The translations under genes were made by a program, and so were the position numbers. A stretch of DNA of 64,000 nucleotides from Flavobacteriales bacterium (GTDB lineage Bacteria > Bacteroidota > Bacteroidia > UBA10329): NCBI GenBank assembly GCA_016124845.1, contig WGMW01000015.1:1-64000 (forward strand). The letters are read 5' to 3'. The notes below the pieces were generated by a model. It did no database searches and was not told where the DNA came from. It saw nothing but the letters and a program-made list of their open reading frames with translations. The first letter of the stretch is position 1; every line of letters begins with the position of its first letter. Of the stretch, positions 1,089 to 60,995 are shown piece by piece.

Positions 1089-3032
1089 ATGATCTCACTC
1101 AACCAGGTTTCAGTTCAATTCAACGGGAAATTCCTGTTCAATAACATCTCTTTTCTTGCCAATCCCAAAGACAGGATCGGTCTTGTTGGGAAGAACGGTG
1201 CAGGAAAATCGACCATGCTCAAGGTTATTTCGGGGCAATTGGAACCCGAATCGGGCAACGTTTCCAAACCCAGCGGGACAACCATCGGTTACCTTTCTCA
1301 GGACATCAAACCGAAATTGGGCAAGTCCATTTTTGAGGAAACGTACGGTGCGCTTCAAGAGTTGAAAGAACTTGACGCCAAGGTGAAAAGGCTCACCAAA
1401 GAATTGGAAGAACGGACGGATTACGAGACCGATTCGTACATGGATCTGATCCACGACATGACGGTGGCTACCGAGCGTTTCAGCCTGTTGGGTGGCGACA
1501 CGGCCGATGCAGAGGTCGAGAAGATCCTACTTGGCCTCGGTTTCCTAAGAAGTGACCTTACCCGTAAAGTGGAAGAATTCAGCGGTGGCTGGCAGATGCG
1601 TGTGGAGTTGGCCAAAATTCTTGTGCAACGGCCAGATGTTCTGCTGCTGGATGAGCCGACCAACCACTTGGACATCCTTTCCATCCAATGGTTGGAGGAG
1701 TTTCTGAAGGATCACAACGGAACCGTTCTTCTGGTTTCGCACGACCGCGCATTTTTGGATAACGTGACCAATCGGACCATTGAGATCACACTTGGGCGAA
1801 TTAACGATTACAAGGTTCCATATTCCAAATATGTGAAGCAGCGCGCTGAGCGCATTGAACTGCAGAAGGCCTCTTACGAGAATCAGCAGAAGTTCATTGC
1901 CGACACCGAGAAGTTCATTGAGCGTTTCCGCTATAAGGCATCAAAAGCAACACAGGTCCAGAGCCGCATCAAGGCGTTGGAGAAAGTGGATAGGATAGAA
2001 GTGGAGGAGGTGGATACTTCGGTGATGCGACTGCGATTTCCGCCAGCGCCACGCTCAGGTAAAGTGGTGGTTCTTTCGGAAGGCGTAAGCAAGAGTTATG
2101 GAGATAAGGAAGTGCTGCGCAACGTTGATCTGATGCTTAACCGTGGTGAAAAAGTGGCCTTGCTCGGCAAGAACGGTGAGGGCAAGACCACATTCTCAAA
2201 AATCGTTGTAGGAGAATTGGACCACACAGGAAAGCTTGAATTGGGCCACAACGTCACGATGGGCTATTACGCGCAGGATCAGGCCGAAACGCTGGACGGT
2301 TCCAAAACCGTTCTGGAAACATTGGATGATGTGGCACGGGGCGACATCCGCACAAAATTGCGCGATATTCTCGGCTCATTCCTGTTCAGCGGTGAGGACG
2401 TGGATAAGAAAGTAAGCGTGCTTTCGGGTGGTGAGCGCGGCCGATTGGCATTGGCCAAACTTCTGCTCGAACCTGTGAACCTGTTGGTGTTGGACGAACC
2501 GACCAATCATCTCGATATGCATTCCAAAGATGTGCTGAAACAGGCGCTGCAGAAATATGACGGAGCGATGCTCATCGTTTCGCACGACCGTGATTTCCTC
2601 AGCGGACTGACCTCCAAGGTCTACGAGTTCAAAGACAAGAACGTGCGGGAACATATTGGCGATGTGTACGAGTTCTTGGCCAAAGTGAAGGCAGAAAGTA
2701 TTCAGGAATTCAGTTCAAAACCAAAGGTGGAAGTTCCTAAAAAGGAAGAATCCAGAACGCAGAGCAAGGAGGATTATAAGGAGCGCAAGGCCAAGGAAAA
2801 GGAACTTCGCAACGCAAAGAACAAGGCCGAACGGCTGGAAAAGGAAATTGCCATTATCGAGCAGCAGATTGCCGATCTGGATGAACTGATGCTGGATGCG
2901 GCAGCTTACAAAGAAGCGTTGGAAGAACGTGATGTCTTTAAGGAATATCAGCAGAAGCAAAGCGAGTTGGACGCCAAGATGACCGAGTGGGAGAGTGCTT
3001 TGCACAGTTGGGACGAGTTGAGTAATCAATAA
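1089..3032 (+). CDS. ABC-F family ATPase (ribosome-associated type)
   Basis: A 647-residue protein with two ABC ATPase domains in tandem and no membrane segments. Domain 1 has Walker A GKNGAGKST (about residue 36), signature FSGGWQMR and Walker B LLLDEPTNHLD. Domain 2 has GKNGEGKTT, LSGGERGR and LVLDEPTNHLD. An arginine- and lysine-rich linker of about 80 residues lies between them, and a charged coiled coil fills about 560-640. This is the ABC-F plan (EttA, Uup, YbiT, YheS), whose members act on the ribosome rather than in transport. The C-terminal coiled coil is most like Uup or Bacteroidota paralogues; the exact subgroup is not certain. Confidence 0.92.
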   Translation: MISLNQVSVQFNGKFLFNNISFLANPKDRIGLVGKNGAGKSTMLKVISGQLEPESGNVSKPSGTTIGYLSQDIKPKLGKSIFEETYGALQELKELDAKVKRLTKELEERTDYETDSYMDLIHDMTVATERFSLLGGDTADAEVEKILLGLGFLRSDLTRKVEEFSGGWQMRVELAKILVQRPDVLLLDEPTNHLDILSIQWLEEFLKDHNGTVLLVSHDRAFLDNVTNRTIEITLGRINDYKVPYSKYVKQRAERIELQKASYENQQKFIADTEKFIERFRYKASKATQVQSRIKALEKVDRIEVEEVDTSVMRLRFPPAPRSGKVVVLSEGVSKSYGDKEVLRNVDLMLNRGEKVALLGKNGEGKTTFSKIVVGELDHTGKLELGHNVTMGYYAQDQAETLDGSKTVLETLDDVARGDIRTKLRDILGSFLFSGEDVDKKVSVLSGGERGRLALAKLLLEPVNLLVLDEPTNHLDMHSKDVLKQALQKYDGAMLIVSHDRDFLSGLTSKVYEFKDKNVREHIGDVYEFLAKVKAESIQEFSSKPKVEVPKKEESRTQSKEDYKERKAKEKELRNAKNKAERLEKEIAIIEQQIADLDELMLDAAAYKEALEERDVFKEYQQKQSELDAKMTEWESALHSWDELSNQ

Positions 3033-3119
3033 CCTGCGGTTGAAAAATCCTGTCATTCGTCAATTGCTGGCAACAGCACTTTGGTAACTTCGCTCTCAAA
3101 TCAGAAAAATCACTTGGTC

Positions 3120-3836
3120 ATGAAAAGAAATCTTCAATTGCAAATGCTCTTGGCAGTACTTTCTGCTGGGCTGATGTTCTCATCATGTGGCAACATCGAC
3201 ATCGTAAAACGCAGATACCGTCCTGGATTTCATGTAGATATTTCGAAGAAGCAGAAAAAATCGCATGAGGTGGAAGAACCTGAAGTTGCAGATGCTCGGC
3301 ATGCGGAAAAAGTTGAACCGATGGAATCGAAGCAGCCAACGCTTGCCTCAGAAAAGCCTTCGGAAGAACTTACTGCAAGCACGGAAAACACCCCTTCTGA
3401 CAACTTCAGTGCGGTAGCGGAGAAAAAGGAGAGCATGAAGAAACAGCTTCATTCGCCTGAGTTCAAGGAAATGAGTTTCAAGGACAGAATGAGAACCATT
3501 GAGCACGAGATGAAGAAACCTTCGCCTGTGGCAAGCACAGAGTGGATGAAGTGGGTCTCGTTCGGAACAGGGATCGGTTCATTGGCGTTCGGAGCCATGG
3601 CATTGCTGTTTGCATTCCTTACCGCTGTGTTCTTTACGGGTTTTGTTTGGGGAGCTGCTGTTCTTGCCATCCTGCTTGGCGGAGCGGCCATTACATTCTC
3701 CATTCTTTACAAGAAAAACAGCGGGTCTTCCTCTCAGTCTAAAATGGGAATGTTGTTCGGAATAATCGGGGCTGGACTGGGCGTGCTTGCTATCATTGTG
3801 GGAGCGATATTCTTTGCGATTTTCGTTCTGAATTAG
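3120..3836 (+). CDS. Lipoprotein with C-terminal membrane helices (tandem copy 1)
   Basis: I choose the ATG at 3120 because it places a lipoprotein signal correctly: residues 1-23 end in LMFSSC, with the lipidated cysteine at 23. Residues 21-39 (SSCGNIDIVKRRYRPGFHV) are identical in the next gene. A charged, low-complexity stretch with many Glu and Lys follows (about 40-140), then two to three hydrophobic helices in a small-residue-rich C-terminus like DUF4190 proteins. Bacteroidota carry many lipoproteins with a KRxYxxGxH/Y block just after the lipobox. Function is unknown. An upstream ATG at 3081 would spoil the signal peptide. Confidence 0.75.
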   Translation: MKRNLQLQMLLAVLSAGLMFSSCGNIDIVKRRYRPGFHVDISKKQKKSHEVEEPEVADARHAEKVEPMESKQPTLASEKPSEELTASTENTPSDNFSAVAEKKESMKKQLHSPEFKEMSFKDRMRTIEHEMKKPSPVASTEWMKWVSFGTGIGSLAFGAMALLFAFLTAVFFTGFVWGAAVLAILLGGAAITFSILYKKNSGSSSQSKMGMLFGIIGAGLGVLAIIVGAIFFAIFVLN

Positions 3837-24601: not shown

Positions 24602-27289
24602 TCAGGCCACCCACTTTTTGATCATGCGCTCAATGTCGTTGGCCACAACGGGTTTCAGTAGCAGGTCGTCCATATCCGATTTCAGATTTCCATCCTCATC
24701 GCGCTGAAGAATATTACCGCTCAGGCCGATAACAGGAGGCACGTGCTCGTAGCGTTTCTTGATCTCTGATGTTGCCTGAAGTCCGTCCATTTCTGGCATC
24801 TGTATGTCCATGAAAACGATGTCGTACTTGCTCTTGTCGAAGTTCTCCACGGCCTGTTTCCCATTCGAAAGCACATCCACTTTGCAGCCCATTTTCTGTA
24901 GCATGATCTTGAAGGCCTGCTGATTGATCAGGTTGTCCTCTACAAGAAGTACTTTGATGCCTTCCACGTTCCGTTTGATGGGCTTTGGTTCGGGCAATTT
25001 TTTCGACTTCGGAACTTCTTTCAGCTTGCCCGTTACAGGCAATGTGATCCAAAAAGTGCTGCCAACGCTTGGGGTACTTTCCACTCCGATCTCGCCTCCG
25101 AGCAACTGCATCAACTTCTTGCTGATGGAAAGTCCAAGTCCTGTTCCTTCCAAATTCTGTGCGGTGGTGTGCTGTAGTTGCGAGAAATCCTGAAACAACT
25201 TCTTCTGATCCTTTTTCGGAATTCCAGGTCCCGTGTCGGTCACTTTAAAGCGGAGCTTATCGGCCGTTTCGGCTATAACCGTAACGGAAACCGATCCTCT
25301 TTCGGTGAACTTGATGGCGTTGCGGACCAGATTCGAAAGCACCTGTGTCAGTCTTCGTCTGTCGGTGTTCAGCGGAATCTCCTCCTTCGGAATATCGAAC
25401 GAAAGCTTCAGTTTCTTGGCCTTGGCTTCGGGTTCGTACCGCTCCGCGATCGTCTCGATCAACTGGGCAACCGTGAAAGCCTCCTTCTGCAAGGCCACTT
25501 TCCCCGCTTCCAGTTCAGAGAGGTTGAGCACATCGTTTACGATGGAACGCAGGTCTTTGCTGGCACCCAGAATGTTCTGAACCTTGGATTTCTGGTCGTC
25601 TGTCAGTTTTGTGTCGAGCAGGATCTCGCTCAATCCCATGATGCCGTTCAGAGGCGTTCGTATCTCATGGCTCATACTTGCCAAGAAATCTGAGCGGAAC
25701 TTCAGCGAATTTTCCGCCACCTGCTTTTCCTGAAGCAGCTGTTGCGCCTGCTTCTGCTCGGTAATGTCGATGATGGTGCCGAGGTAACCTCTGTATTCGC
25801 CCAAATGACTGAAGAGCGGTTGCGCCTGCTCCAGCACGTGCACCGTTTTGCCCATTTGGGTCCTGAACCGATACTCCATCGAAAACGCTTCTTTCCGTTT
25901 CGAAACCGTATTCCAAGCAGCTTTCACGGCTTTCACATCATCCGTATGGATCTGCTTGGTCCAGCTGCCATCAAGGATGGAGACCATGTCGCAACCGATG
26001 ATCAATTGCAGACTTTCATTGATGTATGTGGCGTTGCCATTGGCGTCAACCTGATAGATCCCGACAGGAAGCAGACTGGCCAGTTTCCTGAATTTCGATT
26101 CATTCTCTTTCAGGGCTTTCTCCGCCTTTTTCCTATCGGTGATGTCGATGGACCAAAGCGTGACACGGTCAATTTCTCCTTTGGAATTCTTGACGGGATT
26201 GATGTGGCGGTCGAACCAATATTCCTTTCCTCCGAACGCAAAATGCTTTTCCACCTGCACTCTTCTTCCCGAAAAGGCGCGCTCGACCTCAACCTTGAAT
26301 TGAACCAGATTTTCTTTCGGGGTGATGTCCACCACGTTCATTCCTGTTTTCAACTCAATATTGTACTGTTCGCGGATAAGGTCGGCAGCAGGTTGGTTAA
26401 AGGCGAGAATGTTCAGTTTTCTATCAAGCAGATAGAACGTTTGCGAACTGCTGTTGAACACCGCACGCAAGTTTTCCTCCGAACGGACCACCGCCCGCTC
26501 CGCCTGCTTCTTGTCCGTGATGTCGAACATCCAGATGGAAACCAGATGCAGGTTTCCCAAACGGTGTTTTACAGGCGTAAAGCGAATCTCTATCGTGCTC
26601 GATTCGGGTGCAGGTTTATCAAACTCAATGGCCACAGTTCCTCCATGCCGCGCCACTTTCAACCCACCCTCAAATTCTTCTCTCCAATAAGGGTGAATGC
26701 TGTCGATGATGTTCTGGCTGTAGTAATCGAGATTCTCTTGTACGGTTGCCAAAAGCATAGCAGCCAGCATGTTGGCGCTGATGATGCGATTGTCCTCATC
26801 CACCAGCACAAATCCGTGCGAGTTGTTGTGGTCAATGGCCTGAAGCACCAGCTCGTTCTCCTGATTTTCGAGTTCCAGTCGTTTACGGTCGGAAATGTTG
26901 ATGTACGAATAGATCACGCCATCAATGTCACCGCTCTTTCCATACATGGGACTGAAACGGCCTTCGATCCACATTTCGCTGCTGGAAGAAGGTTTGGTGA
27001 TCTTCTGTTCTGTACTGATGGTTCGGCCTTTGAGAGCCGTTTGGAAGTTGCGGATGAACCGTTTGTTCTGATTCTGATCCACATAATCCCAGTACGAATT
27101 GCCTGTTTTCAGCTCTTCCTTGAAGAACGAATACATATCGCGCGAAGCGCGCGCATTGAACCAAAGGATCCGGAACTCTTTGTCGATGAAAATGATGCTG
27201 CGGTCGGAATGGTCCAACAGCGACTTCATTTCGGCACTTGGTGCCAAGGACTCAAATTGAGGATTTCCGTTCCCTACCGATTCTCCCAT
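24602..27289 (-). CDS. Hybrid sensor histidine kinase with several PAS domains and a receiver
   Basis: The 895-residue soluble protein has four PAS-like domains (about 20-135, 150-265, 275-395, 400-520), each ending in a PAC-type DITDRKKAE/DITEQKQAQ segment, then HisKA with H541 in SMSHEIRTPLNGIMG, HATPase_c (NLVRNAIKF, DTGPGIPKK, GTGLGLSIS) and a C-terminal receiver with phospho-acceptor D828 in FMDIQMPEMDG. No output domain follows, so it works by phosphorelay or with a partner not seen here. Proline dehydrogenase lies 85 bases upstream on the same strand. Confidence 0.92.
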   Translation of the reverse strand: MGESVGNGNPQFESLAPSAEMKSLLDHSDRSIIFIDKEFRILWFNARASRDMYSFFKEELKTGNSYWDYVDQNQNKRFIRNFQTALKGRTISTEQKITKPSSSSEMWIEGRFSPMYGKSGDIDGVIYSYINISDRKRLELENQENELVLQAIDHNNSHGFVLVDEDNRIISANMLAAMLLATVQENLDYYSQNIIDSIHPYWREEFEGGLKVARHGGTVAIEFDKPAPESSTIEIRFTPVKHRLGNLHLVSIWMFDITDKKQAERAVVRSEENLRAVFNSSSQTFYLLDRKLNILAFNQPAADLIREQYNIELKTGMNVVDITPKENLVQFKVEVERAFSGRRVQVEKHFAFGGKEYWFDRHINPVKNSKGEIDRVTLWSIDITDRKKAEKALKENESKFRKLASLLPVGIYQVDANGNATYINESLQLIIGCDMVSILDGSWTKQIHTDDVKAVKAAWNTVSKRKEAFSMEYRFRTQMGKTVHVLEQAQPLFSHLGEYRGYLGTIIDITEQKQAQQLLQEKQVAENSLKFRSDFLASMSHEIRTPLNGIMGLSEILLDTKLTDDQKSKVQNILGASKDLRSIVNDVLNLSELEAGKVALQKEAFTVAQLIETIAERYEPEAKAKKLKLSFDIPKEEIPLNTDRRRLTQVLSNLVRNAIKFTERGSVSVTVIAETADKLRFKVTDTGPGIPKKDQKKLFQDFSQLQHTTAQNLEGTGLGLSISKKLMQLLGGEIGVESTPSVGSTFWITLPVTGKLKEVPKSKKLPEPKPIKRNVEGIKVLLVEDNLINQQAFKIMLQKMGCKVDVLSNGKQAVENFDKSKYDIVFMDIQMPEMDGLQATSEIKKRYEHVPPVIGLSGNILQRDEDGNLKSDMDDLLLKPVVANDIERMIKKWVA

Positions 27290-27374
27290 ACTACAACGAA
27301 CACCGTTTATTAACTTTTAGTGTACGTTGGTCGGGGTCAAATGTTCAAGTTTTCGACCAATGCCGATAACAGGC

Positions 27375-28541
27375 TCACGAAGCCCGTCTGCGCGCCTTTT
27401 CTTTGATGATAAGAGACAATTCCCGCCCAGTTTGACCCGCGATGGAAGTGTTCTCCTCGGCCCTGCGGATCAGGTAGGGCATCACTTCCAGAATGGGGCC
27501 GTAAGGAACGTATTTCACCACATTGTAGTGCTCTGCCGCCAAGTTGAAACTGATGTTGTCGCTCATGCCATACAACTGCGAGAAAAAGATGTGACCATCG
27601 TTGGGTTGCAGTCCTTTTTCAACCATCAGCTCTGCCAAGTATTTCGAACTTTTCTCGTTGTGTGTTCCCGCCAGCACTTCAATATGCGGGTGATTTTCAA
27701 CGCAGAAGCGAAGCGCCAGGTCATAATCGCGGTCGGTATCTGCTTTGGTGGCATGTATCGGTGACGGATAACCTTGCTCTTTGGCACGGGCGCGCTCCTT
27801 TTCCATGTACGCACCGCGCACCAGTTTCACGCCCAGTTTGTAGCCGTCTTTCTGCGCTTTCGCGAAGCTGTCCTTCAGAAACTGCAAACGGTCTTTCCGA
27901 TAGAGTTGAGCGGTATTATAGATCATGGCGCGTTCGCGATTGTAGGTCTGCATCAGCTCTTCCGCAAGCTCATCTATCGCATCCTGAAACCACGTTTCCT
28001 CGGCATCAATAAAGATCGGAACGTTATTCTCCTTTCCAGCCTCACAGATCATGGTAATGCGCTCCATGGCCAGTTTCCACTCCAATTCTTCCTCCTGGTT
28101 GAATTTGGCCTTTGCATTCTTCTTTGCCAAAAGGCGATGTGGAATGATACCTGTCGGTTTGAAAACCGAGAACGGAACCCGCGGATCCTGATGCGCCATG
28201 CGGATGGTGGCGATGGTCTCGGTGGCCGCATGCTCAAAATCGGCCGTTGTTTCCTTGCCTTCGGCAGAATAATCGAGGAGCGTGTAAATGCCCGAAGAAT
28301 GCAATCGCTCGATGGTGGTCTCACAATCTGTAATGTGCTCTCCACCACAGAAGTGGTTGAAAACCGTGGCACGGATAATTCCCTTGACGGGCAATTTGAG
28401 CGCCAACGCCAGGTTCAAAGCCGATTCTCCGAATTTGACCAGCGCAGGACTTCCCACCAATTTGAACAGCAGATGCGCGCGGTTCAACTCACGGTCTGTT
28501 CGATCGGCAAAGGCGGTTTCCGTATTGTCAAATGATACCAT
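27375..28541 (-). CDS. Proline dehydrogenase
   Basis: The 388-residue protein has a TIM-barrel proline dehydrogenase domain: LLDYSAEG, FSVFKPTGI, IDAEETWFQDAID, YNTAQLYRKD, GVKLVRGAYMEKE, AGTHNEKS and YLIRRAEENTS are all conserved blocks of the family. RRAEEN near the C-terminus binds substrate. It oxidises proline to pyrroline-5-carboxylate with FAD and passes electrons to quinone. This is the monofunctional form; the second step (P5C dehydrogenase) is not adjacent. Length is normal for the Bacteroidota type. Confidence 0.93.
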   Translation of the reverse strand: MVSFDNTETAFADRTDRELNRAHLLFKLVGSPALVKFGESALNLALALKLPVKGIIRATVFNHFCGGEHITDCETTIERLHSSGIYTLLDYSAEGKETTADFEHAATETIATIRMAHQDPRVPFSVFKPTGIIPHRLLAKKNAKAKFNQEEELEWKLAMERITMICEAGKENNVPIFIDAEETWFQDAIDELAEELMQTYNRERAMIYNTAQLYRKDRLQFLKDSFAKAQKDGYKLGVKLVRGAYMEKERARAKEQGYPSPIHATKADTDRDYDLALRFCVENHPHIEVLAGTHNEKSSKYLAELMVEKGLQPNDGHIFFSQLYGMSDNISFNLAAEHYNVVKYVPYGPILEVMPYLIRRAEENTSIAGQTGRELSLIIKEKARRRAS

Positions 28542-28611
28542 TCGTGGGTCTGAAAATCGCGGTAAATATAGGTTTCGGAGTTGCCCGTTCTGAATGATTC
28601 CCGACAGGTTT

Positions 28612-30720
28612 TCAGAACTTGAAACGCAGCTGAACCGTCACGTCCGTTCGGTGCTTGCCATTGATCTGTTCCAAACCCGATCCAACGTGGTCGCGGTTGT
28701 TGTAAAAGATGTTCGAAACGCGCACCCACGCGTCAATGTGCCGCTGAAGTCGTGCATGCAGCGTCAGGTAGGCTTTCATGCCGCGATAATAGTACGCTGG
28801 GAAGGAGTAGGCGTAAAGAACGTTGTTCTCGTAAACGTAGATGCGCGAATCGTAGCTGTCGGTATCGAAATAGGCCAAACGCGCATTGAACGACACAGGA
28901 AAATTGACAGGTGAGAAGATGAAATCCTGATAGATGATGAAGCCTTGCTGTGCGGCCTGATCGCCTCGTTTGTAGCGCGTGTATTCCAGTCGGTTGCGCA
29001 ATTTTATCGTCTTGCTCAGACTGAATTGCAGGTTGAGTCGGTAATTGGTGCGCAGCCCGTTTTCGATTCCCGTGATCGGTGCTTCGGTATACGCAGATGA
29101 TTGATTCAGCTGTTTGTTCTTCTGTCGGAATCGGAAATAGACCTCAAAGGTTTTGGATGGTCGATAGATCAACTGTGCCAAGGTTTCGTACCCGAACGAA
29201 GGTCCGTTCACTTGGTAACGCAACCATGGAAATTTGAAAATGTCGAAATAACCGTTCAGAAACCAGCTTTTGAACGGGTTGAGGCTGAAACCGAGATAGT
29301 AGCCCGTCTCGTTGTTCACCCGCGAATTCTCGGTAACTGCGTTGGCGTAAAGTGCCTGATACTGCGGTTGCAAGTGGCGCACCATGGCGGTGAGCGTAAC
29401 GCGCGGATCCAACGTCATGAAAACACCATTTATCGTGGCGAAGCCCAAATTCTGGCTCAGCGCGAACTCACCGAAAAAGTGAAAGTTCTTCCACACGTAA
29501 CTGTAATCGAGGCCATAGTTGCTGTTCTGCTTGCCCGAGAACTCGTAGATGTTGTAAAGGTCATCACTGCGCTGAACAGGCTTCGAAAAATTGTAGCTCA
29601 CAGCGGTCAGGCCGACCGAAAGCCTTCGTCCTTTGTAACTCACATTTCCACCATAAACGGCTGCCGTAATGGACTGTCGGTCAACCAGTTCGTTCGGGGT
29701 TCGGTGAAAACCGCTGCTGAAAATGGAACTGACAGATTCTTGCGTTTCGGTAAGTGTATCGTTGGATGTGGTGATGTTCGCATCAAGCAATTTGTACGAA
29801 CCGAATGCGGTCACTTCGATCTTCCCGAACTGAAGTGTGGCTCCCGCACCGCGCAGAAATCGGTTCTCATCCACGGAAGTGTAAGGTCGCAGTCCGCGTG
29901 CGCTGCGCTTGATGTTGGTGCCGCTGGCCGATTTCCCGAAGGCAAGACCTGTCCAAAGCGTCAAGCCTTGACCGAACTGCGCCTGAAAATCTCCCAACGC
30001 AGCCGCCTTCACCTTGCCGATATTCCGAATGAAGATGTGTCCGCTGTAGAAATCGAAGCCTTGCTTCATACTGCCTTTGAAGAACTGCTCGCCTGGATCT
30101 TTCTCCATCGTAAGTCCCCAAAGCACTTTATTGCCGTAGTTGAAACGGTATCTCGCGTAGTATTTCTGAGGCGAACCGAGGTAGCGACTGTTCGGGCTTT
30201 GCTCCAAAAGACTGTCTTCGATGGGCGCGTAACCTTGCTGCTGCTCCACTACTTGCTGGTAGCGCAGAACAAGTTCGTGCGTGCCTTCTTTCATCATCTC
30301 TTTAAAAGAGAATTTGGTGGCATCTGGATCGTCCGAAACTTTCACAAACGGCTCAATTTGGCGGATAAGCGGAATGGTAAAACCGTCCACCGCCTGTAGC
30401 TCGTAAATGTTCAGCAGCTTGCCATTCGCATCGATGTGACTCAGGAGGTTGGCCACCTCAATATCATCCAACATCGGAAGCTGTTCAAGTTCCGTTGTGT
30501 TGGTCGAATTGAGATTGATCGGATGTTCCGCAAAATAGAGGAGGTCGTCCAGCAGTGTGTTGTAATCCAAGTTCGGATCGGTGTCGCTCAACTGCTCCGC
30601 AATGGTCTCAATACGTGTCTGGATGAGCTGTTCCTGTTCGGCCTCGGTATCCTGCCCATAGGCAAAAATGCTCCCGAAAAGGAGCATCACCAGCAGACCG
30701 TATTTCAGACCGCTTTTCAC
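28612..30720 (-). CDS. Outer-membrane beta-barrel protein with N-terminal helix-hairpin-helix domain
   Basis: The 702-residue protein starts with a signal peptide ending in FAYGQ. Residues 65-125 contain NLNSTNTTELEQLPMLDD and LLNIYELQAVDGFT, which read as two ComEA-like helix-hairpin-helix units. From about 150 to the end, alternating hydrophobic strands with many aromatic residues, and a C-terminal KF, indicate an outer-membrane barrel. The combination is found in Bacteroidota under helix-hairpin-helix domain-containing protein; its function is not known. Its start overlaps the end of the upstream outer-membrane gene by four bases (30717-30720). Confidence 0.8.
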   Translation of the reverse strand: MKSGLKYGLLVMLLFGSIFAYGQDTEAEQEQLIQTRIETIAEQLSDTDPNLDYNTLLDDLLYFAEHPINLNSTNTTELEQLPMLDDIEVANLLSHIDANGKLLNIYELQAVDGFTIPLIRQIEPFVKVSDDPDATKFSFKEMMKEGTHELVLRYQQVVEQQQGYAPIEDSLLEQSPNSRYLGSPQKYYARYRFNYGNKVLWGLTMEKDPGEQFFKGSMKQGFDFYSGHIFIRNIGKVKAAALGDFQAQFGQGLTLWTGLAFGKSASGTNIKRSARGLRPYTSVDENRFLRGAGATLQFGKIEVTAFGSYKLLDANITTSNDTLTETQESVSSIFSSGFHRTPNELVDRQSITAAVYGGNVSYKGRRLSVGLTAVSYNFSKPVQRSDDLYNIYEFSGKQNSNYGLDYSYVWKNFHFFGEFALSQNLGFATINGVFMTLDPRVTLTAMVRHLQPQYQALYANAVTENSRVNNETGYYLGFSLNPFKSWFLNGYFDIFKFPWLRYQVNGPSFGYETLAQLIYRPSKTFEVYFRFRQKNKQLNQSSAYTEAPITGIENGLRTNYRLNLQFSLSKTIKLRNRLEYTRYKRGDQAAQQGFIIYQDFIFSPVNFPVSFNARLAYFDTDSYDSRIYVYENNVLYAYSFPAYYYRGMKAYLTLHARLQRHIDAWVRVSNIFYNNRDHVGSGLEQINGKHRTDVTVQLRFKF

Positions 30721-56064: not shown

Positions 56065-56664
56065 ATGACCCAAATGGCTTCCTCAAGCTTGGTTTCCTCT
56101 CTAAAACGTTGGTTTTTCGGTGCTGTGGCATTGCTCGGTTTCGCAGCTTCGCAACAGTTGGAGGCGCAAACGGTTTACAGCAGCGACAGCAGTTCGGTCT
56201 CGTTCTTTTCGCACACACCGTTGGAAGACATCAAGGCGGTGAACCATGCCTCCACGGCCATGATTGAGATGATGTCGCAGGTGGTGAAGATCCAGGTTCC
56301 TGTGGCCGCATTCCAATTTGAGAATCATTTGATGCAGGAGCATTTCAACGAAGGTTATCTGGAGCCGCAGAAATTTCAGTACGCCACTTTCCGTGGGAAA
56401 CTTTCCGATTCGCTCGACCTTTCCATCGACACGGTTTACATGGTTCAGGCAACGGGAATGTTGAGCTTGCATGGCTTGGACAGGGCACACACATTCGTTG
56501 GGAAGATCGTCTGTCAGGACAGCATTGCCCAACTCACATCAGGTTTTGAACTGGTGCTGGCCGATCACGAAGTGAAAGTACCCGGAGCCGTGTTCGACAA
56601 CATCGCCAAGCTGGTCAAGGTCGATGTCTATTTCCGCATGCATCCTTTCCGAAAGGAGGAGTAA
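56065..56664 (+). CDS. YceI-like secreted lipid-binding protein
   Basis: A 199-residue protein from the ATG at 56065, with a signal peptide ending in LEAQ, then a YceI-type fold: VYSSDSSSVSFFSHTPLEDI, NHASTAMI, FQFENHLMQEHFNEGYLEP, FRGKLS... and HGLDRAHTFVGKIV. YceI proteins bind isoprenoids in a beta barrel. The longer frame from a GTG at 56005 reads through a terminator hairpin. It is the last gene before the cassette-like array, whose first boundary lies in 56670-56696. Confidence 0.85.
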   Translation: MTQMASSSLVSSLKRWFFGAVALLGFAASQQLEAQTVYSSDSSSVSFFSHTPLEDIKAVNHASTAMIEMMSQVVKIQVPVAAFQFENHLMQEHFNEGYLEPQKFQYATFRGKLSDSLDLSIDTVYMVQATGMLSLHGLDRAHTFVGKIVCQDSIAQLTSGFELVLADHEVKVPGAVFDNIAKLVKVDVYFRMHPFRKEE

Positions 56665-56669
56665 CCCTT

Positions 56670-56696
56670 CATTGTATCTTTATCTACCGTTGGCGT
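56670..56696. repeat. Array boundary A (right half only)
   Basis: CATTGTATCTTTATCTACCG then TTGGCG resembles the right end of boundary C (57760-57782). GTTGGC is at 56689-56694. The left half is missing; it may mark the left end of the array. Confidence 0.5.
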
Positions 56697-56705
56697 GCAT
56701 TGAAA

Positions 56706-56981
56706 ATGAAGCATCGAAAACTCATAGCCGACCTTATCGGAATAGCTGTTAGTTTCCTAATCATTGAGGAAACTCTTCGGTTTTTGACGTCTGACTTCGG
56801 GATATCCCTAATCCCTGGTTGGCACACGACAATTTATCCGCGAAATTGGAATCTGATGGCGGGAACGTTTATCCTTCTCGCATTGACATATTTGATATGG
56901 AAACTTGTGAAGGTGATGAGAAGTCTGGCCTTAAAGCTCATCGACAGACTTTCTGGAAACGACACGACTGGAACGAATTGA
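56706..56981 (+). CDS. Cassette gene 1: small two-helix membrane protein
   Basis: The 91-residue protein (MKHRKLIADLIGIAVSFLII after MK) has two hydrophobic helices (about 9-27 and 52-70) joined by a polar loop with a WHTTIYPRNWNLMAG segment, and a basic C-terminal helix. The longer frame from a TTG at 56700 would overlap the boundary element. I do not recognise a family. It is followed by boundary B. Confidence 0.65.
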   Translation: MKHRKLIADLIGIAVSFLIIEETLRFLTSDFGISLIPGWHTTIYPRNWNLMAGTFILLALTYLIWKLVKVMRSLALKLIDRLSGNDTTGTN

Positions 56982-57000
56982 AAAAGAAAGAAACCACGAC

Positions 57001-57131
57001 ACGCCAACACCCGCTAAAATCTAATGCTTGCGACAGTACGTCAGTCAGTCTCAGTTTCGTTCTGTAACGTTACCGTATCTCGAAAACTAAGTAGTTTCAA
57101 AACGCCATACTTTTAGGCGCACCGTTGGCAC
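57001..57131. repeat. Array boundary B
   Basis: Opens with GCCAACACCCGCTAAA (from 57003) and ends CACCGTTGGCACC. The first 65 bases match boundary C at about 85 percent identity by eye; the right 60 bases differ. Confidence 0.65.
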
Positions 57132-57160
57132 CAATTTGAAATGACCGTCACTTATCTGTC

Positions 57161-57640
57161 ATGAAATCGGAAAAAGCTGAACGCAGTTCTGATAATTGGT
57201 ATCCTACTATCATTGGGGCCTTGGCTCGTTATTTTCCCGACACTCATGTTACTGACAACGGAAATGACCTGACGACAACTCTGATGATTTTGAGTTTTGG
57301 TGCTATCGGTGTAACAGTTCTTGTTGCGCTGACAAGTTTGCTTCTCAAACCAAAAGAGACGCTGAAGCCACATTCTGACTACGAACTGAAGGTGAATTCA
57401 AACAAAGAGATACTGAAAATCAAAAAGGTAACCGACATCCGATTTGCTGGTAACTTTCTGACAAACCCTACCCTTGACATGACCTTGGAAATTGACAATT
57501 CCGAAGCCTTTAAATTGCTGACAGGGAAAACGATTCAACCACTGTCGGTAAAGGTTGAAAAAAGGGACACGTCCTTCCTTGAAGAAAGCCCAAAAGAATG
57601 GTTTGACGACTTAATGCATATGGCATGGTCAGCGTCCTGA
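57161..57640 (+). CDS. Cassette gene 2: single-helix membrane protein
   Basis: The 159-residue protein has a polar N-terminus, one strong helix (TTTLMILSFGAIGVTVLVAL, about 38-57), then a soluble domain with a KVNSNKEILKIKKVTDIRF stretch and a hydrophilic end. No known family. Cytoplasmic N-terminus is likely from charge. It is a typical one-gene unit of the array, directly between boundaries B and C. Confidence 0.7.
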   Translation: MKSEKAERSSDNWYPTIIGALARYFPDTHVTDNGNDLTTTLMILSFGAIGVTVLVALTSLLLKPKETLKPHSDYELKVNSNKEILKIKKVTDIRFAGNFLTNPTLDMTLEIDNSEAFKLLTGKTIQPLSVKVEKRDTSFLEESPKEWFDDLMHMAWSAS

Positions 57641-57656
57641 AAAGAAAGAAAAACTG

Positions 57657-57786
57657 GTGCCAACACCCGCTAAATCTAATTCTTGTGACGGTGCGTCAGT
57701 CGGTCTCAGTTTCGTTCTGCGCTGTCCGTGCATGGCGGCAGGAGGGCAGTTTCTAACGCATTATCTTTATCTACCGTTGGCGGCAA
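57657..57786. repeat. Array boundary C
   Basis: Opens with GCCAACACCCGCTAAA at 57659 and ends CTACCGTTGGCGGCAA. The section GCAGTTTCTAACGCATTATC (57747-57766) recurs in boundary E at 59122-59141. Confidence 0.65.
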
Positions 57787-57824
57787 TATGAAAAACCAAA
57801 ACGACAGATAGTATTTCTCATCAA

Positions 57825-58841
57825 GTGACAGAACTTAAACTACATAAGACAACAACGAAAGGACTGAAAATTATCGGGATTTCTATTCCATTTGTTGTTA
57901 TCGGGGTTTGGATGATAACACAAGAGCCAGCAGGGACAACGAATTACATAATGGGTTGGCTTTGTACTTCTTTTTTTGGACTCGGAATACCAGTGGGAAT
58001 TTTCCAATCATTTGATAGACGACCGCAAATTATCCTAAATGAAATCGGGATTTGGGACAGGACGACAAACCAAGACCAAATTAAATGGGAACAGATTATA
58101 GACGCGTATCCTCTCGACATATTTGGACAGAAATTTATCTCAATAGTATCAGACGACACTTTCGTTTTTAAGAAAAAGCCCTACAACTGGGCTTCTAAGA
58201 TTAACAAAGAAATCGGTGCTCAAAATCTAAACCTTCATTTAGGACAAATCAATATTGACGAGCACAAACTGACTGAACTGATTAAAAGTTTGGCGAAAGC
58301 CGAAAAGGGAGACAGAAAAAAAATTCTTCAGTCGTTTAAGATTAGAAAAAGTGGTTTATCCTTTAAAAGTTTTACCAAAATCCTACTTTATATCTCAATC
58401 TCGGTTGCTTTACTCTTATTGTCCTTGACAGGCATTGCTGCTTTTATGACAATAATGATAATTATGGGTTTAGGTGCCATAACAGCTCGTTGGTATTGGG
58501 GAAGCACTGAGAAATCTCTAATAAGAAAATATGCAGGAATAATTACTTGGTTTGGTTTGGTAAATATGGTCTTGTGTTTAGCGACTTTAAAAACTTACGA
58601 CTATGTTTCCGAAAGTGCAGGAAGAAAATTGTCACAGCAAATTGACCACTTCAAAAAAGTTAACTCTTCTTATCCAACTGACTTCAACGCAATTAAAGAA
58701 AATTCAGACTTGAACCTGGTAGAAGGGATTTTTGCAAATAGAGTGCAATACGAAGTAAACGACAACAACTACGAATTACGGACTATCAATTTGTTGAATA
58801 AGGAAAGGACATATGACAAAGACTTGGAAGAATGGAATTAA
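57825..58841 (+). CDS. Cassette gene 3: STM3941-like membrane protein
   Basis: The 338-residue protein starts with GTG at 57825 (ATG is absent nearby in frame). Residues 1-150 resemble STM3941-type proteins: two helices near the N-terminus (GLKIIGISIPFVVIGVWMI; MGWLCTSFFGLGIPVGIFQ), then a PH-like section with NEIGIWDRT and IKWEQIIDAY. A second membrane region at 185-260 has three helices. The C-terminal 75 residues are polar. Base composition is clearly more AT-rich than the flanking genes, suggesting recent acquisition. Confidence 0.7.
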   Translation: MTELKLHKTTTKGLKIIGISIPFVVIGVWMITQEPAGTTNYIMGWLCTSFFGLGIPVGIFQSFDRRPQIILNEIGIWDRTTNQDQIKWEQIIDAYPLDIFGQKFISIVSDDTFVFKKKPYNWASKINKEIGAQNLNLHLGQINIDEHKLTELIKSLAKAEKGDRKKILQSFKIRKSGLSFKSFTKILLYISISVALLLLSLTGIAAFMTIMIIMGLGAITARWYWGSTEKSLIRKYAGIITWFGLVNMVLCLATLKTYDYVSESAGRKLSQQIDHFKKVNSSYPTDFNAIKENSDLNLVEGIFANRVQYEVNDNNYELRTINLLNKERTYDKDLEEWN

Positions 58842-58851
58842 AAAAAATACT

Positions 58852-58921
58852 GCCGCCAACAAAACCTATAAGCAATAGCGCCCTGCGGGACGCTACTGCT
58901 CACAGCTAAACCGTTGGCAAC
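58852..58921. repeat. Array boundary D, folds as a long hairpin
   Basis: GCCAAC (58855-58860) and GTTGGC (58913-58918) are complementary. Inside, AGCAATAGCG (58870-58879) pairs with CGCTACTGCT (58890-58899) with one mismatch, around a CCCTGCGGGA loop region. This is an imperfect hairpin of attC-like design. Confidence 0.7.
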
Positions 58922-58925
58922 AAGT

Positions 58926-59117
58926 ATGAAAACCTACAACTCACTTCTTACTTGGGAACAAATCATTGATCGACTGAAAACCAATCGGTCCCGAGGGTTT
59001 GTTCCAAACATCGACACGGCATACACCTCATTGAAAGTATTTGATGACGAAGTCAAAATTTTTGGCGCCTACTGTGTCGGACAATTGCATCGCGAACATG
59101 ACGGGGTGAGTTTGTAG
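58926..59117 (+). CDS. Cassette gene 4, short and perhaps truncated
   Basis: From the ATG at 58926 the frame gives 63 residues (MKTYNSLLTWEQIIDRLKTN followed by RSRGFVPNIDTAY). It ends at 59117 just before a partial boundary element, so the original gene may have been longer. The sequence looks like a real N-terminus of a small cytoplasmic protein; I do not recognise it. A TTG at 58914 lies within boundary D and is unlikely to be used. Confidence 0.45.
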   Translation: MKTYNSLLTWEQIIDRLKTNRSRGFVPNIDTAYTSLKVFDDEVKIFGAYCVGQLHREHDGVSL

Positions 59118-59120
59118 GAC

Positions 59121-59160
59121 AGCAGTTTCTAACGCATTATCTTTAGCGCTACCCGTTGAC
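59121..59160. repeat. Array boundary E (right part only)
   Basis: AGCAGTTTCTAACGCATTAT (from 59121) matches boundary C, then CTTTAGCGCTACCCGTTGAC. The left GCCAAC half is missing, and the last word is GTTGAC instead of GTTGGC. Confidence 0.5.
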
Positions 59161-59259
59161 TCTGTCAAAACCTGTTTCACAATGCCGGCAGCCGCTGGCG
59201 GTGTTCTTGCCACATGTATTTCAGAATCGGAAGGTCGGTCAGCAACTCTGGCAGCATTT

Positions 59260-59511
59260 TTTGGCGACCCGAAAGGCACTTCTATGGAAACGAAGCGGAC
59301 TACCATGGCAACAAGGCGGTCTGCCATGGAAACGAAGCGGATTGCCATGGAAACAAAGCGGTCTGCAACGGAACCTTACGGCATTACTACGGAATATAGC
59401 GGAATGAAAAAGCAACGAAGCAGAACGATAAAGCAACCGAACGGCATTGCAAAGCAACGGAAGAGCATTGCAAAGCAACCTAAAAGCTCTGCAAAGCAAC
59501 ATTGCTCCTTA
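59260..59511. repeat. 21-bp tandem repeat, about 12 units
   Basis: Exact 21-base units start at 59260 (weak), 59281, 59302, 59323, 59344, 59365, 59386, 59407, 59428, 59449, 59470 and 59491. Early units read like GCCATGGAAACGAAGCGGAT plus T; later ones like GCAAAGCAACGGAAGAGCAT plus T. Because 21 is divisible by 3, a frame of 135 codons (59182-59589) is open across it and encodes heptapeptide repeats such as RSAMETK and GIAKQRK. I regard coding as unlikely because the sister array at 15077 has stops, but it is not excluded. Confidence 0.8.
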
Positions 59512-59618: not shown

Positions 59619-60995
59619 TTAGCTCAGCTCCGCCAGATACTTGTAGAAGAATGGGATGGTCTGAATGCCTTTGAGGTAATTGAAAACCCCGTAATGCTCG
59701 TTGGGCGAGTGGATGGCATCCGAATCCAGTCCGAAACCCATCAGCACCGATTTTACGCCAAGCTCCGCTTCAAACATGGCCACGATGGGAATGCTGCCAC
59801 CGCCACGCATCGGAATGGGTGCCTTGCCAAAAGTGGTCTCCATGGCTTTGTAAGCCGCTTGATATCCTGTAAAATCGGTCGGTGTCAGAAATGGGTCGCC
59901 ACCGTGGTGCGGTGTGGCCTTCACCTTTATCGAAGCGGGCGCAATGGCCACCAAGTGCTTCAAAAGCATATCGGTCACTTTATCGGGGTTCTGTCCCGGA
60001 ACCAATCGGCACGATATCTTGGCGTAAGCCTTGGACGGAAGGACCGTTTTGGCACCCTTGCCGATGTAACCGCCCCAAATTCCGTTCACATCCAATGTTG
60101 GGCGAATGGTACAACGCTCCATGGTGGAATAACCTTTCTCGCCTTGCACGGCATCAATGTCGAGGTCGGCCATGTATTCCTTCTCATCAAATGGTGCCTT
60201 GGCCATTTCGGCCCGGTCGGCCGCACTTACTTCCAGCACGTCATCGTAAAAACCGGGAATGGTGATCTTGCCGTTCTCATCGTGCAACGAGTCGATCATG
60301 TCGCACAGCACATTGATCGGGTTGGCCACCGCGCCACCGTAAATACCCGAATGCAGGTCGCGTTTGGGGCCGGTCACTTCCACCTCAATGTAGCTGAGGC
60401 CGCGCAATCCCACCGTAATGGACGGGACATCATTGGCGATCATGGCCGTGTCTGAAATGAGCACAAGGTCAGACGTCAGTCGTTCCTTGTTCGCTTTTAC
60501 AAAGATCCCGAGGTTGTCCGAACCTACCTCTTCCTCACCTTCAATCATAAACTTGACGTTGCACGGAAGCCCATCGGTTTTCATCATCAGTTCGGCCGCT
60601 TTCACGTGCATGTACATCTGGCCTTTGTCATCGCAGGCACCGCGCGCGTAGATCTTGCCGTCTTTTATCACGGGTTCAAATGCGGGAGAATCCCACAGGT
60701 CCAACGGGTCGGGCGGTTGCACATCATAATGACCGTAAACCAGCACGGTTGGCAGCTTCGGATCCACGATCTTCTCGCCATAAACAATGGGGAAACCTGC
60801 TGTTGGGCAGATCTCCACCTTCTCCACACCGATCTCCCTCAAGCGGTCGGCCAGCAACTTGGCCGTACTATGCACGTCTTTGCTGAACGCTGGGTCGGCA
60901 CTTACCGAGGGAATTCTGAGCAGGTCGATGAGTTCCTGAAGAAAGCGGTCCTTGTTCGATTCAATATAGCTGTCAACTGTCTGTAAATCCATCAT
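59619..60995 (-). CDS. M20-family metallodipeptidase
   Basis: The 458-residue protein has metal ligands in VYGHYDVQPPDP (H89, D91), ARGACDDKGQM, and IEGEEEVGSDN, with the dimerisation lid inserted (about 205-320) and the last ligand in FGLDSDAIHSPNEHYG. This matches CNDP/PepV-like M20 dipeptidases with two zinc ions. It starts at 60995 (MMDLQ) or three bases later. An exact -7 box lies 18 bases upstream. It probably acts in the cytoplasm; there is no signal peptide. Confidence 0.92.
   Translation of the reverse strand: MMDLQTVDSYIESNKDRFLQELIDLLRIPSVSADPAFSKDVHSTAKLLADRLREIGVEKVEICPTAGFPIVYGEKIVDPKLPTVLVYGHYDVQPPDPLDLWDSPAFEPVIKDGKIYARGACDDKGQMYMHVKAAELMMKTDGLPCNVKFMIEGEEEVGSDNLGIFVKANKERLTSDLVLISDTAMIANDVPSITVGLRGLSYIEVEVTGPKRDLHSGIYGGAVANPINVLCDMIDSLHDENGKITIPGFYDDVLEVSAADRAEMAKAPFDEKEYMADLDIDAVQGEKGYSTMERCTIRPTLDVNGIWGGYIGKGAKTVLPSKAYAKISCRLVPGQNPDKVTDMLLKHLVAIAPASIKVKATPHHGGDPFLTPTDFTGYQAAYKAMETTFGKAPIPMRGGGSIPIVAMFEAELGVKSVLMGFGLDSDAIHSPNEHYGVFNYLKGIQTIPFFYKYLAELS

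Follow-up and report, generated by a model that had tools for sequence, protein, structure and literature searches.

What kind of locus carries four small genes in a row, set off by related boundaries that start with GCCAAC and end with GTTGGC, and which system could have assembled it? The initial annotation of the window (here, the whole stretch of 64,000 nucleotides from contig WGMW01000015.1 of a Flavobacteriales bacterium) reported no integrase in it, which proved correct, and suggested either a divergent family of integrons or some other cassette-shuffling system. Our analysis supports this proposal. With a probability of about 0.87, the window appears to contain a short, partly decayed cassette array without a local integrase, which would belong to an integron-like system of a non-IntI tyrosine recombinase.

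Organization of the array

The array (56689-59157) is flanked by a YceI-like gene, ending at 56664, and by an M20 peptidase gene on the opposite strand (59619-60995). It has three complete cassettes and a truncated fourth, with boundary elements B, C and D complete and A and E present as remnants:

56669..56694, + strand: element A, right-half remnant whose terminal G/TT joint is the start of cassette 1; shares 21 identical bp with the right end of C; GTT at 56689
56690..57124, + strand: cassette 1 (gene 1 and element B), exact-match chain
56706..56981, + strand: gene 1, 91 aa if started at ATG, 93 aa if started at a TTG further upstream
57003..57129, + strand: element B, complete attC-like, type 1 right half (AAC 57006 to GTT 57124-57126)
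57125..57776, + strand: cassette 2 (gene 2 and element C)
57161..57640, + strand: gene 2, 159 aa
57659..57781, + strand: element C, complete attC-like, type 2 (AAC 57662 to GTT 57776-57778)
57777..58913, + strand: cassette 3 (gene 3 and element D), exact-match chain
57825..58841, + strand: gene 3, 338 aa, GC 0.36
58855..58918, + strand: element D, complete short attC-like, strong bottom-strand hairpin (AAC 58858 to GTT 58913-58915)
58914..59116, + strand: cassette 4, truncated; gene fragment of about 63 aa with ATG at 58926; own end and left half of its element lost
59117..59157, + strand: element E, of type 2, with its right half only and the word GTTGAC

All four genes were on the plus strand, as annotated, and the boundary words were found in place (GTTGGC at 56689, 57124, 57776 and 58913; GCCAAC at 57003, 57659 and 58855). 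The claim that each of the four genes is followed by such a boundary held for B, C and D, while A and E turned out to be right halves only. It failed for the fourth gene, which is truncated and lacks a boundary. Decay is shown by this truncation and by the half elements with which the array begins and ends. The reported likenesses between boundaries were borne out, with 90% identity over 62 bp at the left ends of B and C and 93% over 30 bp between C and E.

No match to Pfam or PADLOC was found for any of the four genes. The GC content of the three intact genes was 0.435, 0.425 and 0.359, the third alone being below 0.41; cassette GC was 0.37-0.44 compared to 0.49 outside. Between element E and the M20 peptidase gene (59240-59480) we also observed degenerate short tandem repeats with units like ATGGAAACGAAGCGG and AAAGCAACGGAAG.

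The boundary words by themselves carried little information. The pattern GCCAAC-N60-90-GTTGGC occurred 34 times in the source genome compared to 28 times in a reversed control, which is not significant, and a scan of the window for the word pair gave one match where 0.22 were expected. The signals above chance are the homology among elements and the complementarity within cassettes.

Complementarity of the two ends of a cassette

In a correction to the initial annotation, the ends that pair belong to one cassette; those of a single boundary do not pair. Each cassette starts with the reverse complement of its own end, and the sequence differs from cassette to cassette through compensatory changes. 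For example, the start of cassette 1, GTTGGCGTG, is complementary to its end, CACGCCAAC, over 9 bp. The start and end of cassette 2 (GTTGGCACCA and TGGTGCCAAC) pair over 10 bp, a mismatch and 3 bp, and so do those of cassette 3 (GTTGGCGGCA and TGCCGCCAAC). For the start of cassette 4 the exact-match chain search found no partner. Exact matches were used in the chains, as allowing one mismatch let chance matches swamp the results.

In the genus, 33 cassettes were delimited by element models that excluded the variable stem, of which 30 remained once their ends had been snapped to AAC and GTT; the set of 33 gave the same picture. The models were blind to the stem, though they were seeded from elements first found via pairing chains, so that the sample is not wholly independent. 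Over positions 4-10 of the 30 cassettes, pairing reached 94.8% within a cassette, compared to 54.3% at array junctions and 46.2 +/- 3.6% for permuted ends (maximum of 1000 permutations, 58.6%). Each of positions 6-9 was occupied by four pair types. Position 11 was unpaired in all 30 cassettes (C.A in 26, G.A in 4), and positions 12-14 were paired in 26-27 of them.

We read these data as a predicted stem at the cassette joint, G/TT, in which 10 bp are followed by an invariant mismatch and roughly 3 more bp. As the first ~10 and last ~10 bases of a cassette are reverse complements, the stem would be complete only when the cassette is circular. With this rule, cassettes could be called without a covariance model.

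In folding predictions, the circular form did better than the array form. On the bottom strand, the circular forms had a mean z of -4.44 compared to -2.80 for the array form and to -3.28 for the top strand; z was below -2 in 29 of 30 circular forms, and the bottom strand was slightly the more stable one (-31.2 compared to -27.8 kcal/mol for the top). What the pairing shows at position 11 is a constant mismatch and not a proven extrahelical base. Element D alone gave z = -4.24 on the bottom strand and -2.74 on the top strand. Elements B and C alone gave no significant fold (z about -1), as expected for elements whose stem partner lies at the far end of the cassette; the circular forms of cassettes 1 and 2, also with z about -1, did not fold significantly either.

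Repeats that can form hairpins might also be ordinary intergenic ones, such as terminators or REP-like palindromes, lying between horizontally acquired genes, and the lower GC of the array compared to the genome would agree with that origin. Such repeats would leave unexplained the pairing of a cassette's own ends across a whole gene, as well as the linkage to an integrase and the exact junction difference described below, and the elements had no match in Rfam. We find this explanation scarcely credible.

Elements elsewhere in the genome and in the genus

Homologs of the elements were found at 12 other places in the source genome at E ≤ 4.1e-30. Altogether it has more than 25 dispersed elements, on many contigs and often at contig ends. 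Congeners carry them too, with 22 matches in one genome (G004) and fewer in G002, G003 and G008. As grounds for refutation, the initial annotation had named genes and boundaries that keep their order in distant genomes, or a lack of further elements beside unrelated genes. Neither applied. Among the genomes covered no such conserved order was seen, as in eight congeners the matches sit on elements and not on genes, and dozens of further elements bounding unrelated genes were found.

In a GTDB scan, from which the source genome itself may be absent, the exact core string occurred in two congeners only, and the element sub-family of the window therefore looks genus-specific. VCR sites are likewise genus-specific, in Vibrio. 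The core string had no match in viral contigs. Element length was 117-123 nt in 29 of the 30 cassettes, though the loops are of several sequence types; outside the genus the width varies widely.

At the place orthologous to the array, G002 and G004 have the same flanking genes, but these enclose a conserved 5-gene operon instead of cassettes, so the array is not shared by these two genomes at that place. A clean empty site was not found in congeners, because they carry this different operon.

Dispersed copies, many at contig ends, could suggest that transposable elements bounded by terminal inverted repeats, whether MITE-like or carrying genes, are scattered over the genome. A fixed-end transposase, however, would not yield terminal repeats that vary between units yet stay complementary within a unit, and the units here are contiguous, have single joints in common and in relatives lie beside an integrase gene. 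We consider transposition of this kind very unlikely.

A separate observation concerns a 90-bp sequence present at seven contig ends of the source genome (C8, C13, C19, C42, C43, C49 and C64). At six of the seven an attC-like element adjoins it, always at one and the same base within the AAC core (...GCAACGGGC/ACAMYSC). The sequence resembles the terminus of an insertion sequence that is present in several copies and inserts into the core of the elements; its body is absent from the assembly. IS1111-attC elements target attC similarly.

Linkage of arrays to a tyrosine recombinase

The source genome (98.9% complete) had no detected cassette integrase and no IntI over the cut-off. Recombinases on four of its contigs were considered for the role and rejected: those on C49 and C16 are, by their neighbours, XerD-like and XerC-like, respectively, and those on C59 and C51 are not near elements. 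At C59 22063-23846, a 735-aa primase-like ORF is followed by a pair of neighbouring tyrosine recombinase genes, of 304 and 290 aa; this pair is probably a separate integrative element.

In relatives, arrays start just downstream of a tyrosine recombinase gene of the same direction, so the search proposed initially for such a gene beside a similar site had a positive outcome there. For example, contig C45 of congener G004 has a 426-aa tyrosine recombinase gene that ends ...CCCC-TAG, with the stop codon overlapping the cassette start GTTGTGGTTAATA. Relatives of this integrase at E ≤ 1e-40 were present in 198 of 395 genomes of the class, often with such cassettes downstream and some in other contexts, e.g., near IS91. 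Also in G004 (C38, about 27200-28700), we observed a broken relative of the cassette integrase with the SAM-like and catalytic parts in separate frames; this genome may have carried more than one cassette integrase.

Among the 24 integrase loci with enough sequence, 17 had a GTT word no further than about 330 bp from the stop codon and with a downstream partner pairing at 6 or more of 7 positions, compared to 2 of 18 control recombinases. A full 7/7 partner was found at 9 integrase loci and at none of the controls. A few of the 6/7 cases, judged by their position and missing flanking signature, are probably due to chance; at 7 of the 24 loci there was no convincing first cassette. An attI-like site beside the integrase gene, with the first cassette joined there, was found in relatives and not in the source genome.

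A difference exactly at the GTT word, which the initial annotation had suggested looking for between strains, was detected at draft contig ends of G004. Three of them have one 139-bp sequence in common. Contig C45, with the integrase, and contig C9, with an array ending in a type-4 element, run into this sequence, and contig C16, with eight cassettes, starts with it at GTT. On the left side of GTT, one context has CCCCTA and the other TAAAAC. We infer that the same cassette follows an attI-like site in one context and an attC-like site in the other, the contexts diverging exactly at GTT; as these are ends of draft-assembly contigs, the genome could simply have the cassette in two copies. Two further integrase contigs stop at CGTT or CGTTA (G145, G388), which would be expected if the next cassette differs among members of a population.

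Exact-match chains gave 10 consecutive cassettes in contig C23 of G004, 8 in C16 and 7 in G355, compared to at most 3 in shuffles of those loci. In G355, a single-contig genome of another family, the chain begins just after an integrase gene. Most cassettes hold a single forward ORF with start and stop near the cassette ends; a few have no intact ORF. The products in sister arrays included HNH, TonB_C, RNase_T plus BRCT, a NIF phosphatase and a Por-tail protein, while several others matched nothing. In Rufibacter tibetensis (integrase WP_245652382.1) and Pontibacter kalidii, complete plasmids carry an integrase gene with small co-directional genes and such sites behind it. A transposase gene of the IS110 family is located within the cassette array of P. 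kalidii plasmid pls1 (10553-11908), and another at the array end of R. tibetensis plasmid 1 (14647-15705).

Position of the integrase among tyrosine recombinases

In the phylogenetic tree the integrases grouped together (SH-aLRT 97), with IntI (98) as their neighbour and XerC/XerD separate (99). The spacing from GKGxKxR to HxxRH was 65 residues in all 15 measurable integrases, compared to 107 in 11 of 11 IntI and 73 in XerD. When aligned to IntI4 (2a3v), the match is interrupted at the insert, with 27 residues against 70 in IntI4, and the integrases score below the cut-off of NCBIfam TIGR02249. Most of them have an N-terminal extension of roughly 100 residues. On this evidence the Bacteroidia integrases are the sister clade of IntI, devoid of the IntI-specific insert.

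The nearest solved structures were those of archaeal XerA (4a8e, 5hxy). We know of no cassette arrays associated with XerA or with XerC/XerD. Two of three IS91-linked recombinases tested fall in or near the clade, and two are on long branches with unsure placement; because of such members the clade is not exclusively one of cassette integrases. The IS91-associated proteins (e.g., TnpF-type, Acinetobacter tet(X3) plasmid) have a related recombinase domain. On the other hand, they are shorter, lie beside an IS91 transposase or a resistance gene, and have no cassette array in the loci covered.

These results bear on two further explanations. First, the array might be an ordinary CALIN of canonical IntI-type integrons with standard attC sites, IntI being merely missing from the source genome. 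The cassette layout is the same, and canonical IntI over the cut-off does occur elsewhere in the phylum, in 20 of 46 sampled genomes outside class Bacteroidia. However, the noncanonical character of the words, already pointed out initially, extended to the whole set, with a single one of the 30 cassettes fitting both GTTRRRY and RYYYAAC; IntI over the cut-off was found in none of the genus and in 1 of 197 relatives, mostly within class Bacteroidia; and the recombinase adjoining the arrays has no IntI insert. We regard this origin as unlikely. Second, Xer-dependent (pdif-like) modules could be moved by the host XerC and XerD, both of which the source genome has in addition to lacking a detected cassette integrase. 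Yet we saw no conserved dif-type spacer with fixed arms, the arms differing cassette by cassette, and the arrays are linked to another recombinase clade than XerC/XerD. There is very little chance, in our view, that this explanation applies.

Proposed mechanism and comparison with integrons

In the non-IntI integron-like system that we favour, the integrase would release cassettes in circular form through recombination between two attC sites (attC x attC) and insert the circles into the attI-like site that adjoins the integrase gene. Recombination would act on a folded single strand, most likely the bottom one. The array in the window would derive from an integrase-bearing relative or ancestor; in the source genome the cassettes are dispersed, and the integrase would have been lost or never acquired. 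As no integrase was detected in that genome, the array may be inert.

The likeness to integrons and CALINs (PMC9024848, PMC9668308, PMC8618304) includes one gene and one site per cassette, an outer stem owned by the cassette, the G/TT joint and an attI-like site beside the integrase; most sites, at 117-123 nt, resemble long chromosomal attC. The differences are an integrase that has an N-terminal extension and not the IntI insert, words outside RYYYAAC/GTTRRRY, an outer stem of 10 bp, a mismatch and 3 bp instead of 7, and an integrase gene co-directional with the array. In the wide sense of the term the window does hold a CALIN (at least two attC-type sites, three of them complete, and no integrase detected in the genome). 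We would describe the array as an integrase-less variant within the known integron-type organisation, from a non-IntI lineage, with recombination that is deduced from sequence.

Integrons have been held to be rare in Bacteroidetes; IntegronFinder 2.0 gave Salinibacter ruber M1 as the sole complete integron in Bacteroidetes proper (PMC9024848). Site recognition by IntI has been linked to the extra domain of this protein (PMC9668308, PMC8138268). A second lineage able to work without this domain would show the essential parts of the machine and would also expose a large pool of unannotated cassettes. We think it probable that Bacteroidia have an integron class of their own, with an IntI-sister recombinase devoid of the insert and a longer cassette-owned stem with an invariant mismatch, common throughout the class on chromosomes and plasmids, of which rAID arrays would be one branch.

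Relation to rAID arrays

The text on recombinase-associated acquired interbacterial defence (rAID) of gut Bacteroidales (PMC12247911) does not mention integrons. In rAID, as in the system proposed here, a recombinase of the same clade heads co-directional short low-GC genes with conserved intergenic motifs. However, rAID cassettes encode immunity proteins, whereas the window genes match no family; the joint there is A/TT compared to G/TT here, and rAID elements are short, about 45 nt. An upstream rAID-type tyrosine recombinase is absent from the source genome, though congener G004 has a member of the clade. The window genes are co-oriented, and GC below 41% was seen in the third intact gene only. 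Orphan immunity genes were not found among them by Pfam or PADLOC, and sister arrays carry unrelated families.

Plasmids of Bacteroides ovatus and Parabacteroides distasonis have a recombinase of the clade (42-43% identity), downstream of which lie SMI1/KNR4, Imm26 and similar genes with GC of 0.33-0.35. By the definition in PMC12247911 we read these arrays as rAID. In the two arrays, all 11 scored cassettes paired their own start and own end at 6-7 of 7 positions, compared to means of 3.4 for swapped ends and 3.6 for ends at the same junction; the cassette ends were picked by eye from intergenic stretches, less strictly than in the genus set. The integron-like system thus appears to be the way in which gut Bacteroides build anti-toxin immunity arrays, which would offer a testable mechanism for an assembly process described as not yet clear (PMC12247911). 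In both gut plasmid arrays, a TetR/AcrR-family regulator gene was located directly upstream of the recombinase gene (2998-3612 and 2938-3558).
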